Source: Dietzia sp. B32
Lineage (GTDB): Bacteria > Actinomycetota > Actinomycetes > Mycobacteriales > Mycobacteriaceae
Length of the DNA: 64,000 bases
Direction: 5' to 3'
Assembly: GCF_024732245.1 (NCBI RefSeq)
Contig: NZ_CP093845.1
Span: 2,232,001-2,296,000 of the forward strand
Below are positions 34,737 through 46,510 of this stretch, piece after piece (within the stretch, counting starts at the first letter, position 1; the number at the start of each line of letters is the position of its first letter). Both the position numbers and the translations under genes were made by a program. Below the pieces are notes generated by a model that was given only the letters and a program-made list of their open reading frames with translations, searched no databases and was not told where the DNA came from.

Positions 34737-37502
<2,766 letters not shown>

Positions 37503-37528
37503 GGCCGGTGTCGAACACTCACGCGAGA

Positions 37529-37566
37529 AAGGGGGGCGTCCGCCGTGGTCGGCGGACGCCCCCCTT
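37529..37566. terminator. Bidirectional terminator after gyrB
   Basis: A perfect 16-base-pair stem (AAGGGGGGCGTCCGCC and its complement) with a six-base loop is followed by CTTCTG. It lies between the convergent stops of gyrB (37502) and the lipase gene (37597) and can serve both. Confidence 0.88.
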
Positions 37567-37596
37567 CTTCTGTGCCCGGTTCGTGCGGCGAGGGTT

Positions 37597-38928
37597 CTAG
37601 AGTGCCCCGCAGTCGTTCGGGGCCGGCAACCCGGCGAGTCGGTCGCGCAGGTACTGCACGGCGGGGGCGAAGTTGGTCACCGCCGCCGCGGCGTGGGTGA
37701 TGCCCGGGACCAGTGGCGTGGTCTCGTAGCGGAAATGCACGTCGACGCCCTGAGCGCACCAGTCGCGCCCCAGCTGCTGGACCTGACCGAGCGGGATGAT
37801 GTCGTCGTTGATCCCGCCGGCGATCATCACGGGCACGGTGGGGGTCCGGTTGCCGATCCGCTGGTGATCGAGCACGCGCAGCGCACCGGGCTCGTCGCGG
37901 ATCAGTTCACCGAGGTTCCGCCCGGAGTTGGTCCACTCGGAGGTGGCGCGCCCGCCGTAGGCGGCCCGGGTGTCGGCGAGACAGAGCCCGGACAGATCGT
38001 CGAGAGCGCGTCGACCCGCGGGACTGACGTGCTCCTCGACCACCTCGCGGACCGCCGGGTACCGCTCGGCCATCCCGTTGATGGCGAAGCCGATCGCTCC
38101 GGTGAGACTCGACCCGTCGATGTGATCGAGCACCGCCAGCAGATCCGCCGGGGGAGCGGAGGCGTACGCCGCGCGGAGGTCGAGTTCGGGGGCGTACTCC
38201 GGGGCGAGCTCGGCTGCCGCGGCCGAGGCTCCGCCGCCCTGGGAGTGACCCCAGAGGACCAGCGGGGAGTCGTGTCCGATGAGGTTCTGCGCGGCCCGGG
38301 CACCGTCGAGCATCGCGTGGGCCTGCTCGACCCGGTCGGCGTAGGTGTGGATTCCCGGTGTGCCAAGGCCGATGTAGTCGATGACCATGACGCGGAATCC
38401 CTGGGCTGCCAGCGCGATCGCGAAGCCCTCCTCGTACGAGACGATCGGCGCGCCGGACCGGGGGTTGGCGCCCACCCCGGATTCCACGGTGCGCGACGGC
38501 GCGCAGGGGTCGCCCTGACCCTGGGTGCCCGGACCGAGGATCATTGTCGGGCGCGGACCGGGTCCGGACCACGGGGCGGTCGAGTCGTAGAACGCACCGG
38601 AGGTCGCGACGGGCTGTTGATCGACGTCGACGGTCCGGTAGATCACACGCCGGGCGACGGCCGGCAACGGAGACGGTAGGGCCGGGAGGCCCGGAACCGA
38701 GATCGCCAGCGGTAGGCCCGCCGGCTCGGTGCGGAGGAGGTCCCCGGCAGCGCCCTGTGTCGGAAGGGCGCGTGTGTCGTGGAAACCGCCGGGCAGGTCG
38801 AAGGTGTCCGTCGGGTTCTCCGTGGCCGCGGCCGTGGTGGCCGTCGACGACATCCCGACGGTCAGTGTCACGGCGGCGGCGAGAGAGGCGAGGACCCGGC
38901 GACGGATCGTGGTCGTGGGGTGGCTCAT
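37597..38928 (-). CDS. Secreted lipase (LIP family)
   Basis: A 443-residue exported alpha/beta hydrolase of the secretory lipase family (as in Candida lipases and actinobacterial inh-type lipases). The signal peptide (RRRVLASLAAAVTLTVG, ending near TTAAA) is followed by GAFYDSTAPW and the nucleophile elbow LWGHSQGGG (near residue 225). Acid and His candidates are in GGINDDIIPL and GITHAAA. ATG at 38928 is chosen; ATG at 38937 adds three residues. It is divergent from the GH114 lipoprotein gene. It likely hydrolyses esters or triacylglycerols outside the cell. Confidence 0.85.
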   Translation of the reverse strand: MSHPTTTIRRRVLASLAAAVTLTVGMSSTATTAAATENPTDTFDLPGGFHDTRALPTQGAAGDLLRTEPAGLPLAISVPGLPALPSPLPAVARRVIYRTVDVDQQPVATSGAFYDSTAPWSGPGPRPTMILGPGTQGQGDPCAPSRTVESGVGANPRSGAPIVSYEEGFAIALAAQGFRVMVIDYIGLGTPGIHTYADRVEQAHAMLDGARAAQNLIGHDSPLVLWGHSQGGGASAAAAELAPEYAPELDLRAAYASAPPADLLAVLDHIDGSSLTGAIGFAINGMAERYPAVREVVEEHVSPAGRRALDDLSGLCLADTRAAYGGRATSEWTNSGRNLGELIRDEPGALRVLDHQRIGNRTPTVPVMIAGGINDDIIPLGQVQQLGRDWCAQGVDVHFRYETTPLVPGITHAAAAVTNFAPAVQYLRDRLAGLPAPNDCGAL

Positions 38929-39068
38929 GCCCCGCATACTAGAACGTGTTCTCCGCGACCGGGGTCGGCTCGGTCCGGGTCGGTTCGGTCGGCCGTGGCC
39001 TGGGCTCATCGGCGATTGGTAGTCGATTCACAGGTGCTGGACGGTCGGGGTGGTGACATGATCGGTAG

Positions 39069-39995
39069 GTGCCCCTCACCCTCACCGTCCTCGGTCGCGC
39101 GGCCGTCGTCCTCTCGTGCTCTGCGGCGATCGTGCTGACCGGGTGTGGAACCGAGGTGCTGGGTCAGGGATCGCTCGGTGACGGGGGGGATCGGGGGGTC
39201 GGCCTGCCCGCCGCCGGGACGGAGCCCTCGGCCCTACCTTCGGTTGACGGGATCGAGCCGCCTCCGGCGCGCGCGGTGGTCGACTACCAGATCGGGGGCA
39301 CCTACCCTCCGGCCTCCGATGTCGGGGTGGTGACCCGCGACCGTTCGGAGCAACCGCCCGACGGTGTCTACGCGATCTGCTATCTCAACGCCTTCCAGGC
39401 ACAGTCCCACGAGAGGCCCGTCTGGGTCGAGCGACACCCGGACCTGCTCCTGGGATCGCCTGTCGGAGGCGTGGTCGAGGACGAGGACTGGGGCGAACCC
39501 CTCCTGGACATCTCGACCGGGGACAAGAGGTCCCGGTTGGTGGAGATCGTCGACGAGTGGATGGCGGACTGCGCGGAGCGTGGATACCGGGCGATCGAGC
39601 CCGACAACCTCGACTCGTGGACACGGTCTTCGGGCCTGCTGACCAGGGGCGACGCGGTGGAGTACGCCCGCCTGCTCGTCGAGCGTGCACATGCCCGCGG
39701 TCTCGCAATCGGACAGAAGAACGCCGCCGAACTGACTGACGCGGAGCTCCGCACCATCGGATTCGACTTCGCGGTCGCCGAGGAGTGCCAGCGCTACTCC
39801 TGGGGGCGCCTGACGGAGTGTGACCGCTACCTCGCGGCCTACGGAGACCGGGTGATCGAGATCGAGTACACCGACGCCGGCTCCGGGCCGTTCGATTCCG
39901 CCTGCCGCGCTCGTGGGAGTCGCATCTCGATCCTCCTCCGGGATCGGGACGTCGTCCCGAGGGGCGAGCCCGGCTATGTCAGCCGGAGTTGCTGA
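39069..39995 (+). CDS. GH114-family lipoprotein, endo-alpha-1,4-galactosaminidase-like
   Basis: A 308-residue lipoprotein: a short hydrophobic signal ends in the lipobox LTGC (lipidated Cys26). The catalytic domain carries GH114 marks: DGVYAICYLNAF, RGYRAIEPDNLDSW (acidic residues at 177-182) and FDFAVAEECQRYSW (Glu at 238-239). GH114 enzymes such as fungal Ega3 cut alpha-1,4-linked galactosamine polymers. It converges on and overlaps by 17 bases the spherulin-4 gene, and so flanks the proposed exopolysaccharide operon. GTG at 39069 is the start. Confidence 0.86.
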   Translation: MPLTLTVLGRAAVVLSCSAAIVLTGCGTEVLGQGSLGDGGDRGVGLPAAGTEPSALPSVDGIEPPPARAVVDYQIGGTYPPASDVGVVTRDRSEQPPDGVYAICYLNAFQAQSHERPVWVERHPDLLLGSPVGGVVEDEDWGEPLLDISTGDKRSRLVEIVDEWMADCAERGYRAIEPDNLDSWTRSSGLLTRGDAVEYARLLVERAHARGLAIGQKNAAELTDAELRTIGFDFAVAEECQRYSWGRLTECDRYLAAYGDRVIEIEYTDAGSGPFDSACRARGSRISILLRDRDVVPRGEPGYVSRSC

Positions 39996-40701
39996 TCGTC
40001 GGGTGGTCGGCGTTGAGGAATTCGACGGATCCCCACGGATGCGGCAGGCCGTCCGCGGCGAGCCCGACGTATCCCGCTCCGAGTTCGACCGACCTCGCGA
40101 CGGCGTCACCCCTGCGCTCGGAAGGGCACTCGTAGATGAGGTGCCAGATCTTCGCGGGGTCGATGTCCGGCAACGGTGTCGCGGGTGAGGTCAGGTGGGT
40201 CTCGAGGTCGGTCTCCCGCACGCAGATGACGTCGAGCACTCGGAGGACCCGCGGGTGTGGGATCGTGCCCGGGTTGCCGGCGAGTGTGACCACACCGTCG
40301 CCGCGAAGTGTGGTCACCAGGCCGGTGAACTCGATGAGGGCGTCGACGTCCGCCCGGCCGTCCGGTCCGACGCCCGAGACGACCTGGTCGAGGAACACCG
40401 ATGTGATGCCGTATCGATCACGCCATTTCCGCGCCTCCGCGCGGACCTCGTGCGGGGTCCGCCGTCCGTAGTCGGTGTCGACGTATCCGAGGATGGTCGC
40501 GTGTCCCCCGGTCCCGCGGGTCCCGCCGGGGCCGTAGGCGCGGAGGGCCTCGGCGAAGACCGGATCGAGTACCCGGCCCGGGCCGGAGTCGACATTGACG
40601 ACGACGAGGTCCGCAGCCCCCGGACGGAGGACCTGTTCCCAGAGTTCGGAGTCGACCACGGGATGGATGTAGAGGGGGACCGCGGCTCGTGGGGTGTTCA
40701 C
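39979..40701 (-). CDS. Spherulation-specific family 4 (Sph3/GH135-like) protein
   Basis: A 240-residue TIM-barrel protein of the spherulin-4 family. Signatures are VPLYIHP (residues 8-14), VNVDSGPG, LGYVDTDYG (71-79), SVFLDQV (101-107) and LAGNPGT. The fungal member Sph3 (GH135) hydrolyses galactosaminogalactan and is needed to make it. The motif usually read FDE is LDQ here, which may alter catalysis. There is no signal peptide, so it may act in the cytoplasm or be a domain partner of the membrane protein. GTG at 40701 overlaps the upstream gene's stop (GTGA). Confidence 0.82.
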   Translation of the reverse strand: MNTPRAAVPLYIHPVVDSELWEQVLRPGAADLVVVNVDSGPGRVLDPVFAEALRAYGPGGTRGTGGHATILGYVDTDYGRRTPHEVRAEARKWRDRYGITSVFLDQVVSGVGPDGRADVDALIEFTGLVTTLRGDGVVTLAGNPGTIPHPRVLRVLDVICVRETDLETHLTSPATPLPDIDPAKIWHLIYECPSERRGDAVARSVELGAGYVGLAADGLPHPWGSVEFLNADHPTISNSG

Positions 40702-42086
40702 CAGCTGTGGGGGTGGAGCGCGGCCGTGACGGCGTGGTACACCGCGAGTAGGCAGGCTCCGCACAGCATGGCGACGCCGACCGGGACCGGGAGGCCGAAC
40801 CTGAGGGTGGCGAAGCCTATGCAGGCCAACGCGGAGATCCACACCGCCTCCGCGACGCGTCCGGCTCTGAGCACGATCGCCGAGCCGAACGCGAACACGG
40901 CGAACACCGGCGCGACCACCACCAACACGACGACGTCCGGAACGAGTCCCGATGCCGGATCCTCCGCGATCCCGAGGATCCGGTCCACAATCCAGGTCGC
41001 CGACACCGCCGCTATCGCGATCGCCGCCAGGTAGATCAGTGTTCTCACGAGAACCCCGTTGAGGACGGAGCGCCAGCGGCCGGAGCGGTAGGACAGAGAT
41101 TTCAGTCTGATCCCCAGGTCCTCGATCGCCGGATCGCACAGTGCGGCGGCGAGGATGACGGCGATGGACAGGGGGATGCGGTCGTCGGAATCCGCGAGGT
41201 TGAGCGCCATCAGTAGCGCGCTCGACATGAGAATCGCCTGACTGGCGCCATCGAACGCGGCTCGCGCATCGTCTCGCGACGGCAGGGCCGGTGGGTCGAT
41301 CGTCGTGGCTCGATAGGTGCGGGCGGCGAGGAGGGCACCACCGACGGAGAGGACGCCGAGGGCGATGACCGGCACCAGGGTGGCGCCGGTGACCGAGGCC
41401 GTCACCGCAACGACCGCGCACCCGCCGGCGAGGGCGGTGAGCAACCGCAGACCGCCGAGCACGGACACGATCGTCAGCGATGCGGCGTAGAGGGTCCACG
41501 CCGAGCACAGAGCCGCCGTGGGGAGCACCGGAGCATTGCCGACGACGGCTGTCCCCGCGGTGACGGCGCCGACGAGAGGGACCGCCACGAGGAGGGCGAT
41601 GCCGACCGAGATCCGCGCAGCCCCCGGAAGGTCGCCCAGGCCCGCCCTTCGCCACGTGACGAATCCGAGGAGCTGTCCGAGGATCCACCCGGCGAGACCA
41701 GTGGCGACGATCGCGAGCGACAGATCCGGCCCCGTTCCCACCGCCGCGGGAGCACAGAGCGCCATGACGACGGCGCCTGCCAGGAGTAGAACTGCTCTGA
41801 TCCAGCCCTTTCGATGGGCCCGCGGGCGCATGCTCACGGCCCCGGATGATCCGGGGGCGAGGGTCGGGAGTGTGCGGGCGTACTCGTAGACGTCCCGGGC
41901 CCCGTGACGTCGCGCCAGCGCGTCCCCGAAACCGGAGGCCTCGAGGTGCGCGGCGACGTCGAACCGGTCGACCGCGCGACCGACCAGGTCGTGGTGGGCG
42001 TCGAGCGGGACGGCGGCGACCACCAGCGGCCTCGACGGCAACGGTGACCGCGCGGCGACGCCGAGAGTCGCGAACGATTCGCTCAT
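40698..42086 (-). CDS. Polytopic membrane protein of the exopolysaccharide locus
   Basis: A 462-residue protein that I cannot assign to a named family. The first 90 residues are soluble and include DVAAHLEASGFGDALARRHGARDVYEYAR. About ten to twelve helices follow, beginning GWIRAVLLLAGAVVMALCAP and ending AMLCGACLLAVYHAVTAAL. Overlaps on both sides (ATGA with the glycosyltransferase, GTGA with the spherulin gene) show a tight operon. Size and context resemble PelG, the membrane partner of PelF, so export or polymerisation of the glycan is a reasonable inference. Confidence 0.72.
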   Translation of the reverse strand: MSESFATLGVAARSPLPSRPLVVAAVPLDAHHDLVGRAVDRFDVAAHLEASGFGDALARRHGARDVYEYARTLPTLAPGSSGAVSMRPRAHRKGWIRAVLLLAGAVVMALCAPAAVGTGPDLSLAIVATGLAGWILGQLLGFVTWRRAGLGDLPGAARISVGIALLVAVPLVGAVTAGTAVVGNAPVLPTAALCSAWTLYAASLTIVSVLGGLRLLTALAGGCAVVAVTASVTGATLVPVIALGVLSVGGALLAARTYRATTIDPPALPSRDDARAAFDGASQAILMSSALLMALNLADSDDRIPLSIAVILAAALCDPAIEDLGIRLKSLSYRSGRWRSVLNGVLVRTLIYLAAIAIAAVSATWIVDRILGIAEDPASGLVPDVVVLVVVAPVFAVFAFGSAIVLRAGRVAEAVWISALACIGFATLRFGLPVPVGVAMLCGACLLAVYHAVTAALHPHSW

Positions 42087-43600
42087 GACGCCACACCCGC
42101 CACGTAGTCGAGCGTGTCACCGGTGTACCGGGCTCCGTGGAGATCGATGGCGATCTCGTACCACCCACGGAAGGCGTCGATGCAGTGGTCTAGTGCGAAC
42201 GACTGCAGGGAGTGCTCGCGCGCTCGTCGGCCGGTCTCTTCTCGAAGCCGGTCGTCGCGCAGGAAGCGCAGGCATTCCCGTGCGAAGGCGTCCGGGTCAC
42301 GGGGCGGGACGAGGCCGCCGAGTCGTCCGTCGGTACCGACGGCCTCGGACACCCCGCCGACGTCGGTGTTCACGGTGACCCGGCCGCACATCATGGCCTC
42401 GATCGTCGTGAAGGGCAGGCCCTCGGACACCGAGGACAGTGCGACGATGTTTCCCGCTTCGACCGCGGGCCGTGGGCCAGCGGTGGGCCCTTCCCAGGTG
42501 ACCCCGTCTGCGATTCCCAGGTCCTCGACGGTCGCCTCGATCTCCTGCTTGTACCGGGCGTTGCCGGCGGGGCAGGGTCCGAAGATCCGGAGGCGCGTCT
42601 CCGGCATGTCCTTCCTGACGACGGCGTAGGCGCGCACGAGGGTGTCCAGGTCCTTGAGGGGGTCGATGCGTCCCACGAAACTGATCGTCGGGACCGTCGG
42701 CTCGGGGCCGACGGGCGTCATGGCCGCGGTGTCCACCCCGTTCCGGACGGTGTGGATCCGATCCGGATCCGCACCGAGCCGAACCGCCCATCGCGCGTTG
42801 AAGTCGCTGACCGGCAGGAGCAGATCCGCCTCGCTGTAGGCGAGCACGCAGATGGCGCGAAGTGCGGTGCACACGGCGTAGCGCGCGGACCACCCCAACG
42901 GGGTCCCCGCCAGGGCGAGATAGCGTTCCCGCAGGTAGACACCGTGCTCGGTGAGGATCAGCGGCACCCCGTCCCGCCACTTGCGTGCGAGTCCGACCAG
43001 GGCCGCACTGCCGTTGGAGGACGCGTGGACGACGTCCACCTCGCCGAACCTGACGTCGGTGGCGCTCAGCGCGCGGTCGACGAGGGTGGCGGCCTCGACC
43101 GCATCACCCACGCTCAGTCGGGCCGACCGGTCCAGCGCGGGGGAGTGGGCCCACCACGCGTCGAGCAGGGCCTCGGCCGAGCTCTCCGTACCCAGGAGCC
43201 GGAAGAGATCGCCCCGTCCGGCGTCGACGAGCTCACGCAGAGCCGCCGACAGCCGGGCGGGATCGTGGCGGACGGTTCCATCGGCGACGGAGATCGTTCC
43301 CGCGGGGGGAAGGATCGCCGCCCACATCTCCCGGAGGGCGGACCTGACGCGGGCCCGCCGGCGCCGGCTCAGGAGCTGACCCTCCGGGAGTCCGGCCCGG
43401 ACCGGGGCCCACAACGGGTGCAGGGTCGTCGACCGGACCTGGGTCGGGAGGTCCCAGGTGATCGGGGTGCGAATCCCCCCGGTGAGGGTGACGACATCCC
43501 ACGTGTGGTCCGGCATCCCCCTCACCAGCTGGTCACACCAGGTGCTCACGCCCCCGGTGTTGACCGGGTAGGTGCCTTCGTTGATCAGTGCGATTCGCAT
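42083..43600 (-). CDS. PelF-like GT4 glycosyltransferase
   Basis: A 505-residue glycosyltransferase with the PelF layout: an N-terminal DUF3492-type part opening ALINEGTYPVNTGGVSTWCDQL, then LILTEHGVYLRER, and a C-terminal GT4 domain with ISFVGRIDPLKDLDTLVRA, ARYKQEIEATVEDLGI and SSVSEGLPFTTIEAMMCGR (nucleotide-sugar site). PelF is a cytosolic UDP-sugar polymerase of the Pel polysaccharide, an N-acetylgalactosamine-rich glycan. ATG at 43600 starts four bases after the deacetylase stop, and the 3' end overlaps the membrane-protein gene. Confidence 0.88.
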   Translation of the reverse strand: MRIALINEGTYPVNTGGVSTWCDQLVRGMPDHTWDVVTLTGGIRTPITWDLPTQVRSTTLHPLWAPVRAGLPEGQLLSRRRRARVRSALREMWAAILPPAGTISVADGTVRHDPARLSAALRELVDAGRGDLFRLLGTESSAEALLDAWWAHSPALDRSARLSVGDAVEAATLVDRALSATDVRFGEVDVVHASSNGSAALVGLARKWRDGVPLILTEHGVYLRERYLALAGTPLGWSARYAVCTALRAICVLAYSEADLLLPVSDFNARWAVRLGADPDRIHTVRNGVDTAAMTPVGPEPTVPTISFVGRIDPLKDLDTLVRAYAVVRKDMPETRLRIFGPCPAGNARYKQEIEATVEDLGIADGVTWEGPTAGPRPAVEAGNIVALSSVSEGLPFTTIEAMMCGRVTVNTDVGGVSEAVGTDGRLGGLVPPRDPDAFARECLRFLRDDRLREETGRRAREHSLQSFALDHCIDAFRGWYEIAIDLHGARYTGDTLDYVAGVAS

Positions 43601-43604
43601 GTCG

Positions 43605-45848
43605 TCAACCGATCGCGGACGGGCCCTCGCCCATGGCGCCGACCCGGGTGGCCTCGTTGATCGGCGGGATCACGACGGACCCCTGGCCGGTGGCCGGGGC
43701 AGCACCGGCCCTTGCCGCCTGCGGGAGCGCCCTCGCGGCCACGGCCGGCTCGTCCGCGTCCCCGGAGGGAGTGCGGAACCCGGGCTCCGACCCGAGCTCG
43801 ACGGTCACCGAGGCGCCGGGTGCGATGGTGAGCCAGCCGGACTCCGCGCCGGCGTACCCGGTTCCGGTGAGATCCGAGCCCTCCGGGGTCGTGACCGGGA
43901 CATCGACGCCGGCGGCACCGCGGTTGGTGATCACGAGGGTGTCGCCGGTGACGGTCGCGGTGACGTCCTCGGCCGCCGCCGCCCACGCCGCTCGCCGCTG
44001 CATCTCGCGTCCGAGCTCCGCGTGCGTCGGGTTGAGCAGCGGCGCGGACGGGGAGAACACACTGCGGTAATTCGCGAGGAACGCGTTCAACACCGGGTAG
44101 AGGATCCCGTCCCCGGTGATGTTGGACTGGTGCACGTAGTGCGGGCGCGGGTCCATCCCGATGGCGTGGTTCAGTGCGTGCCGGGCTTCCTGCGGGACGA
44201 TGTATCCATCGAAACCGTCCGGGCCCAGCGGACTGATGCAGGTGGAGGCCGGGTTGCTCTCGCAGACGCCGGAGCCCCCGTCTGCCCTCGAGGTGTAGAT
44301 CCAGTTGTACTCGTCGACCGCGTTGGCCTCGGTCGAGGTGTTGTAGAAGATGTTCATCGGATGGCGGGGGACGGTCAGTGCGTCCCCGACCCGGCGCTGG
44401 ACGGCCTCGACCGAGGCATCCGCGGCGACCCAGGTCACCCCCGTGGCGGTGAGCGCCGGCGCGAGTGCGGGATTGTCCTCCCTGGACGGCCCGGAGACGA
44501 GCCCGGAATGCTGGCCCGTGACCAGCTCGGCCGGGTTCAGAGTGACCTGGTTGGCCTCGGCCCAGTCGAGGTTCCGCTGGATCTGGTCGGTGATCCGGGC
44601 CTGGTCCAGGTTGTCGAGGTTGCTGTGGTCCCAGGTGTGGTTGATCCACCTGAGGTCGGCCCGGGACTCGAGCAGCGCCCGGGTGAGTGGGTCGTCCTCC
44701 TTCGCCCCGAAGGCGTTGAAGGTCATGTCGAGCTTGACGCCGTTGGCGTCCTGCCAGGTCGTCGCCGTGGCCACGTCGTCAGCGCCCATGCGCGACTCCG
44801 CGAGATCACCCTCATCGGGGGCGCAGCCGGCGTCGGCTAGGAACGTACAGTTGCCCTCGGGGTTCCACTCGTCATCCGTGAGGAAGACGTCATCGACCTG
44901 GACGTTGAAGGTGTTGCGGTACATCGAGGTCGAGACCCCTCGGGTCAGCCACGAGATCATTCCGTGGGAGAGCACCGTGAACTGCTGCTGGTACTGGTTC
45001 ATGTCCACGGTGAGGACCAGTTGTTCGCGGTCGCCGCTCGTGTAGACGCCCATGAGGGTGCCCCCGCCGTGGTCCGGCGTGGTGAGCAGGGGTCGGAACG
45101 ACGTCGATCCGGTGTCCGCCAGAGGGCTCGACACGTATCCGTAGGACTCGGGGCCGGGCGCGATATCGTCGAAGGTCAGCGCCCCGTCGAGGTAGGACCA
45201 GGGCCCGGCGGTCGCCTCCGTCGTCAGGTTCACACCCAGTCCGTCCAACTCACCGGAGAAAGAGGGGCCACCCATTCCGATGGCCGCGCTGGGCCAGTTG
45301 TAGGCCGCGATCTCGCGGATCCCGTAGTCGGCGGCGAAGTCATCCAGGATCTGGTGTTCCTCCGGCGTGATCCCCCCGCGCGCCGCGGACGGCGAGACGA
45401 TACCCATGTACCGGGCACTCGTCGACGCGTCGTCGGCGAGCATCTCCCGGGTGATGGAACCGGTCCGTCCGGGACCCACGTCCACACGGTCGACCTCGAC
45501 CCCCTCCGCGGCGAGCCGCTCGGCGAGCGCACCCACGAAGGGGGTGCCGTTATCGAGGACCAGGACCCGCAACTCGACCGTCGCCTCGCGGGCGGGCGGA
45601 GGCGTCGTGGTGGTCGTGGGAGTGGTGCTGGACGTCGGCGTGGTGGACGTCGAGGTCGAACTCGACGTCGGCGGGGTGGATCCGCCCGATCCGGATGAAC
45701 CGAGTGAGCCCGTCTGGGCGGTGGCGATACCGACCAGCGGTGCGGTGATCACTCCGGTGAACGCGATCGCGGCGACTGTGCGGAAGCTCGTGCGCTGCAG
45801 GGGCGAGAGCCCCCGGTCCGAGCTGCCGCCATGGGTGGTGATGGACAT
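43605..45848 (-). CDS. Secreted polysaccharide deacetylase, Agd3-like (CE18-type)
   Basis: A 747-residue exported protein. A signal peptide (residues 1 to about 44, ending GIATA) is followed by a Ser/Thr/Pro linker (48-88). A Rossmann-like part starts VELRVLVLDN; the deacetylase domain has the metal motif candidates QVDDVF (Asp319/320) and NHTWDH (His404, His408), with later His in TGQHSG, PRHPMN and YVHQSN. This order resembles Agd3, the Aspergillus galactosaminogalactan deacetylase. A beta-sandwich-like C-terminal part follows. ATG at 45848 has AGGGAA upstream. It is the first gene of the operon, with a strong hairpin in the leader. Confidence 0.83.
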   Translation of the reverse strand: MSITTHGGSSDRGLSPLQRTSFRTVAAIAFTGVITAPLVGIATAQTGSLGSSGSGGSTPPTSSSTSTSTTPTSSTTPTTTTTPPPAREATVELRVLVLDNGTPFVGALAERLAAEGVEVDRVDVGPGRTGSITREMLADDASTSARYMGIVSPSAARGGITPEEHQILDDFAADYGIREIAAYNWPSAAIGMGGPSFSGELDGLGVNLTTEATAGPWSYLDGALTFDDIAPGPESYGYVSSPLADTGSTSFRPLLTTPDHGGGTLMGVYTSGDREQLVLTVDMNQYQQQFTVLSHGMISWLTRGVSTSMYRNTFNVQVDDVFLTDDEWNPEGNCTFLADAGCAPDEGDLAESRMGADDVATATTWQDANGVKLDMTFNAFGAKEDDPLTRALLESRADLRWINHTWDHSNLDNLDQARITDQIQRNLDWAEANQVTLNPAELVTGQHSGLVSGPSREDNPALAPALTATGVTWVAADASVEAVQRRVGDALTVPRHPMNIFYNTSTEANAVDEYNWIYTSRADGGSGVCESNPASTCISPLGPDGFDGYIVPQEARHALNHAIGMDPRPHYVHQSNITGDGILYPVLNAFLANYRSVFSPSAPLLNPTHAELGREMQRRAAWAAAAEDVTATVTGDTLVITNRGAAGVDVPVTTPEGSDLTGTGYAGAESGWLTIAPGASVTVELGSEPGFRTPSGDADEPAVAARALPQAARAGAAPATGQGSVVIPPINEATRVGAMGEGPSAIG

Positions 45849-45867
45849 ATATTTCCCTGTTGTAAGT

Positions 45868-45901
45868 GCCGCCACTCCCGATCCCCCTCGGGAGTGGCGG
45901 C
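45868..45901 (-). promoter_or_regulatory. Perfect hairpin in the leader of the deacetylase operon
   Basis: Arms GCCGCCACTCCCGA and its exact complement (14 base pairs) with a six-base loop lie 20 bases upstream of the start codon at 45848, just before the AGGGAA ribosome site. It could stabilise the transcript, bind a regulator or control translation. It has no T-run, so simple termination is less likely. Confidence 0.6.
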
Positions 45902-46510
45902 GTCCCCCGGAGACCGGGCAGATCGCCCGACCTCCTCGCACGGTCACCCGTGCGATAAGTGGAAGTGTGCGCTCGGCAGAGGGGTGTTCACAACGGCTGA
46001 GAAGAAAAAGTTTTCCTAGAAAATCCGTTTACTATAAGACAATGTTTATGTCGTCACGCCAGCTGACCGGGTGCCGCGGAGTCGACCAATTGTAGACGTG
46101 TCATTACCCTATTTCCCGTGTGTAGCGCTGTGAGCACGGTGTTCACACTGTTCATCGCGCCCCCTCCCGTCGTCCGTTCGTAGACGGCAACATAAGGGTT
46201 TCGTCACCGGAATCTATGATGGACAGCCGACCACTTGGAGGCCCGGAGACGGGCGGCCGGAGGTCGTCTCGGACGGTGTTTCCGTGACGGTGCCGCGAAC
46301 TGGACGCTGGTGTTGTCCCGCTGCCCCGCCTCTGCCCCGCTTCTGCGGCGCCCCGCGACCCGCCGGACGCCATCCGGGGCGGGGCTGCGCCCGGGTCTTC
46401 GAATCACCGACGCCCCGCGCGCCCGTGCGGGTGTTTCCGCAGGACCTATAGACTGGGACGGTCGAAGCGTGCCCTGCGTGTCGCTTCGAGCGCGAGACGA
46501 AGAGGAGCCC
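45902..46510. promoter_or_regulatory. Divergent control region between the polysaccharide operon and gyrA
   Basis: This region holds no credible gene. Bases 46000-46055 are unusually AT-rich for this genome (AAAAAGTTTTCC, GTTTACTATAAGACAATG) and on the minus strand include TATAGT, a possible -10 element for the deacetylase operon. The 10-mer GGTGTTCACA occurs at 45983-45992 and 46138-46147 and may be an operator. On the plus strand, CCTATAGACT near 46445 is a possible -10 element for gyrA; GAGGAG precedes the gyrA start. Confidence 0.55.

Follow-up and report, generated by a model that had tools for sequence, protein, structure and literature searches.

A candidate galactosamine-polymer operon between gyrB and gyrA in Dietzia and its relatives in Actinobacteria

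Described galactosamine-polymer systems

The closest described systems are the galactosaminogalactan cluster of Aspergillus and Neurospora (uge3, gtb3, agd3, sph3, ega3), the Gram-positive Pel operon (pelDEADAFG; PMC7112168) and the agd3 operons that Bamford et al. 2020 (PMC7229062) described in bacteria. In the fungal system GH135 is described as specific for the acetylated polymer and GH114 for the deacetylated one, and Sph3, the fungal GH135, as membrane-bound and acting outside, where the chain exits the synthase (PMC11356417, PMC12054363). According to PMC7229062, the bacterial operons share an Agd3 homologue, a cytoplasmic glycosyltransferase, a multispanning membrane protein and a GH114 enzyme, and in some Actinobacteria also a spherulin-4 protein. 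The description of these operons there, supplements aside, does not state hydrolase topology, membrane-protein fold, a leader, the gyrB-gyrA site or the distribution within the genus; members from Dietzia or Streptomyces may be listed in the supplements. Beyond this paper, none of those listed in searches of the open literature (subscription journals and supplements aside) deals with the operon in Actinobacteria; pel operons of actinobacteria are mentioned in PMC7112168 and PMC7112194.

The window analysed here is a stretch of 64,000 nucleotides from Dietzia sp. B32, whose genome is a one-contig assembly of 3,725,606 bases. An earlier note on this DNA had proposed all five genes as a complete bacterial machine for a partly deacetylated galactosamine polymer. 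The five-gene set is confirmed, and the families are supported by sequence and predicted folds. The idea itself is not new, since such operons had been reported in PMC7229062, and the note had overlooked that GH135 carries no export signal. To the known kind we add a defined gene order, an exporter fold, a likely split of the hydrolases between compartments and a conserved leader. At a probability of roughly 0.75, we read the locus as one that would make a partly deacetylated, GalNAc-based cationic cell-surface polymer by the steps proposed below.

The Dietzia locus shares deacetylase, GH135, GH114 and glycosyltransferase with the fungal cluster, whereas it has no epimerase, its GH135 has no membrane anchor, and two genes encode its glycosyltransferase and its membrane protein, where the fungal Gtb3 is described as a glycosyltransferase with transmembrane character. 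With the Gram-positive Pel operon it has a PelF-family glycosyltransferase and a deacetylase in common; it differs in the lack of a PelG match and of a GGDEF match in the genome, and in combining an Agd3-type deacetylase with GH135 and GH114. Streptomyces and other actinobacteria could serve as tractable bacterial models for a polymer mainly studied in Aspergillus and Pseudomonas, a probable exporter can be named, and the question why these systems keep two hydrolases with opposite substrate preference becomes testable.

The locus and its enzymes

The operon lies at 2.27 Mb of the contig, and start codons were picked by rule. Its first gene (43605-45848, minus strand) encodes an Agd3-like polysaccharide N-deacetylase (CE18 with a CBM87-like domain) of 747 residues with a signal-like N-terminus, a Ser/Thr/Pro linker and the three domains of Agd3: CBM87, CE and a C-terminal beta domain. 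The Agd3_CE Pfam score of 25.4 bits falls below the gathering cut-off of 27.6, a curated threshold and not a biological feature. D319, D320, H404, H408, R495 and H573, which correspond to the catalytic base, the metal triad, the CM3 Arg and the CM4 His, are present in 26/26 rows; in a wider alignment R495 is kept in eight of nine rows and the other five in all nine. These motifs (D-D, H-x3-H, CM3 Arg, CM4 His) are used as defined in PMC7229062. The putative substrate of this CE18-like enzyme is alpha-1,4-GalNAc.

The second gene (42083-43600, minus strand; 505 residues) encodes a PelF-like GT4 glycosyltransferase (DUF3492) that scores 144.5 bits against the NCBIfam PelF equivalog NF038011 (cut-off 100) and 141 bits against PF11997. 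It is followed by a membrane protein of an unclassified family (40698-42086, minus strand), our proposed exporter, for which a moderately confident model (pLDDT 72.5) predicts a twelve-helix MATE/MurJ-like fold of the MOP superfamily. The predicted twelve-helix fold is common to this protein and to the MOP exporters MATE, WzxE and MurJ; in contrast to these it has a small added N-terminal helical domain and matches no Pfam family. An identity as PelG was rejected for want of sequence support: PF16933 is absent from the protein and matches nowhere in the genome (control: matches in 1 of 14 genomes), a direct sequence comparison had only two close sequences of PelG to draw on, and the matches listed in the structure comparisons include no structure of PelG.

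The fourth gene (39979-40701, minus strand; 240 residues) encodes a GH135 or spherulin-4 glycosidase, which matches PF12138 with 77.3 bits (cut-off 30.2) and the Sph3 structure 5c5g with an E-value of 6.5e-5. Converging on the operon from the other strand is the gene for a GH114 endo-galactosaminidase lipoprotein of 308 residues (39069-39995, plus strand; PF03537, 168.5 bits against a cut-off of 27), whose match to the Ega3 structure 6oj1 has an E-value of 4.3e-13 and retains the PDN and E-x-C stretches in the alignment. An LTGC lipobox is present in its translation, and in 51/55 GH114 proteins a lipobox comes after a hydrophobic stretch; two of the remaining four are near-consensus by eye.

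The enzyme assignments of the earlier note are supported, and so is the analogy with galactosaminogalactan. The signal-like N-terminus fits the exported deacetylase that had been suggested, and the lipobox, with its recurrence among relatives, a GH114 bound to the surface. The description as Pel-like has to be narrowed: it rests on the PelF-family glycosyltransferase, as there is neither a PelG match in the membrane protein nor a GGDEF match in the genome. The absence of a local epimerase was seen correctly. No UDP-Glc/GlcNAc 4-epimerase is clustered at the locus, and the GalE above the cut-off (366 bits) lies far off, at 0.13 Mb of the same contig.

Gene order beyond Dietzia

Scanning genome contigs with a deacetylase alignment yielded 356 relatives, and the best 80 were kept. 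These are mostly from Streptomyces, with others from Dermacoccus, Kocuria, Dactylosporangium, Actinomadura, Propioniciclava, Longimycelium and Dietzia; such closest-match sampling overstates conservation for distant relatives. Gene order was counted in the 67 of these loci with at least 5.5 kb downstream. The order deacetylase, glycosyltransferase, membrane protein, GH135, GH114 in one direction is found in 50 of the 67. Taken singly, the glycosyltransferase and the membrane protein are each present in 65, GH135 in 64 and a same-strand GH114 in 51; among the 16 loci where the latter is missing, three are from Dietzia, their GH114 being inverted like that of the window.

Across the class, the deacetylase occurs in at least 26/394 genomes and at least 7/138 genera (alignment A4), lower bounds because three candidates were scored per genome. 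A survey with PF25115 (5/396 genomes of the phylum) missed the window's own protein and was discarded as a measure of prevalence. As to spread by plasmids, relatives of the deacetylase were found in 13 of 72,556 plasmid records, at 43% identity at best, none of them listed as Dietzia.

Five loci found earlier have other gene arrangements, and in two of them (L023 and L024) PelG replaces the membrane protein of the window type; it was identified by Pfam in L023, and its counterpart in L024 is 87% identical. Both come from genomes of another class and combine PelG with a PelF-like glycosyltransferase, an Agd3-like deacetylase and a GH135 on the opposite strand. They may connect the Pel systems with those of the Agd3 type.

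Upstream of one locus (L058), genes resembling those for leucyl aminopeptidase, dihydrolipoamide dehydrogenase and sucB were named by eye. They have homologues at 65-66 of the 80 loci, which suggests a stable core position for the Streptomyces loci.

Location of the two hydrolases

In the window the GTG start of GH135 overlaps the stop of the membrane protein by 4 nt, and no N-terminal hydrophobic segment was found in the protein. Such a segment is likewise absent from GH135 in 66/67 loci, the exception (L055) being barely above the threshold. A start with the same 4-nt overlap is possible in 39 of 67 loci, and in 55 of 66 no more than 60 nt lie between the membrane-protein stop and the GH135 domain, which leaves little room for a signal. 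This coupling is not universal: in L055, L060, L080 and L121 GH135 lies about 2.7-2.9 kb past that stop. Nor is the missing export signal specific to the operon, since in a survey of 30 GH135 loci of Actinomycetes most have no signal-like N-terminus, whether linked to a deacetylase or not. The hydrophobicity check can detect such signals, because L228 and probably L205 show them; the read-through upstream frames of two further loci, L211 and L212, gave 1.58 and 1.95. Beside the GH135 gene of L228 are a gene for a deacetylase and another GH135.

Together with the fungal preference for fully acetylated polymer, the lack of an export signal and the start overlapping the exporter's stop make it most likely that GH135 works on the cytosolic side, on a chain that has kept its acetyl groups. 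This fit of each hydrolase's location with the acetylation state of its substrate is our main new inference. The split between inside and outside might be unreal, with GH135 exported without a signal peptide or degenerate; this is unlikely, yet the most probable of the alternatives. Signal-bearing GH135s do exist in the class, as just noted, and fungal Sph3 works outside at the synthase exit (PMC11356417, PMC12054363); the membrane-anchored extracellular domain typical of it, which is not family-defining, is missing here. Degeneracy might be read from the position beside the Sph3 Asp, where a Glu is replaced by Gln in 65/70 GH135 rows and activity could be altered. Against this, D105 and E163, which align with the Sph3 catalytic acids (the Asp/Glu pair named in PMC12054363), are invariant in 70/70 rows, and the tight spacing in 55 of 66 loci argues against export.

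A proposed route and its alternatives

In the biosynthetic reading, UDP-GalNAc would be supplied by the GalE encoded outside the locus, a putative source for which use of UDP-GlcNAc is assumed. GalNAc would be polymerised by the cytosolic PelF-like GT4 enzyme and the chain carried out by the adjacent MOP-fold protein, while GH135 might clear stalled chains or set chain length on the cytosolic side. Outside, the secreted Agd3-like enzyme would remove acetyl groups, and at the surface the lipid-anchored GH114 would cut the chain where it is deacetylated. Expression is probably controlled by the structured leader, which would replace the c-di-GMP switch of Pel systems. Substrate, chain direction and the role of every step are what we infer from the proteins described above.

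At somewhat less than even odds, Actinobacteria may possess a poly-galactosamine machine of a separate class, its trimming split between compartments, with a cytosolic, acetyl-specific GH135 that acts on the nascent chain and is coupled to a new MOP-type exporter, an outer GH114 lipoprotein dependent on deacetylation and, in Dietzia, control by a structured leader RNA instead of c-di-GMP.

The product could also be a different polymer, such as another hexosamine homopolymer or a wall-linked galactosamine glycan, the likeness to galactosaminogalactan and Pel then reflecting family membership only. We consider this improbable: the closest characterised relatives of deacetylase, glycosyltransferase, GH135 and GH114 all come from systems for GalNAc or GalN polymers, and the four are kept together across loci. 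That the locus is an island for degrading the polymers of other microbes is highly improbable, for although it has two hydrolases and a deacetylase, and a secreted galactosaminidase has been reported from Streptomyces griseus (PMC7229062), the glycosyltransferase and the MOP-fold protein each occur in 65 of 67 loci, and within Dietzia these two show the highest conservation among the five proteins (85-88% and 82-91% identity).

Leader and control

Pel-type control by c-di-GMP appears unavailable, as no GGDEF match was found in the genome (control: matches in 8 of 14 genomes); some streptococcal PelD proteins are described without GGDEF (PMC12345266). Upstream of the deacetylase lies a leader (45854-45955, minus strand), recognised by its fold and its conservation across five genomes, with hairpins at 45936-45955, 45909-45935 and 45868-45901 and a Shine-Dalgarno-like stretch at 45854-45858. 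All three hairpins are present in the five Dietzia genomes that carry the operon, with RNA fold z-scores of -5.9 to -8.1. With 43 nt, the leader core (45866-45908) exceeds every other invariant run in the alignment of the operon across five genomes (the next has 28 nt), although the deacetylase downstream is only 65-69% identical among carriers. The core contains a perfect hairpin of 14 bp, whose end lies 9 nt ahead of the Shine-Dalgarno-like stretch. With up to three mismatches allowed, each carrier has a single copy of the third hairpin, and none of the 18 other genomes of the genus has one.

Over 37400-46400 Rfam gave no match at gathering scores, and scans for promoters and terminators found 0 and 1, matching shuffle expectation. 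Perfect hairpins with a stem of at least 9 bp were found in five of the 80 loci, three of them from Dietzia. In a covariance-model search of 81 sources, full-length matches below an E-value of 1e-30 came only from the window and from three Dietzia loci; all four had been among the five sequences used to build the model. Covariation is weak (-0.68) on a MAFFT alignment in which hairpin 2 is misaligned; when paired by hand, 53/55 cells are standard and both sides have changed at two positions. This is slight support, because the five carriers represent about three lineages. While a role in control is probable, a DNA operator and an RNA switch are equally possible.

Genomic site and distribution in Dietzia

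Deacetylase, membrane protein and GH114 co-occur in the same five of 23 genomes of the genus, and in all five the operon lies between gyrB and gyrA. Elsewhere in the genus this interval is filled by a lipase alone in nine genomes (and in one more at a contig edge), by other genes in two, is tight in two and unresolved in four. A gyrA plus gyrB tree, which covers 21 of the 23 genomes, groups the carriers within a single seven-genome clade (support 98); a tree of gyrB only is poorly resolved around the long-branched G012. The two clade members without the operon have a tight interval (G013) and a lipase (G007, a draft 82% complete). One gain within this clade followed by loss is the simplest account. 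Of the gain by insertion into a normally tight interval proposed in the earlier note, the gain can be retained as the simplest reading; the interval is tight in two of 23 genomes.

In the window, a LIP-family lipase at 37597-39009 also lies inside the interval, and a relative of it is the gene found there alone in the nine other Dietzia genomes. In one carrier (G015; L044, G015:C1:13800-21000) an extra gene group stands between the operon and gyrA, with genes named by eye as a GntR-like regulator, a transporter, LamB/YcsF-like and related genes.
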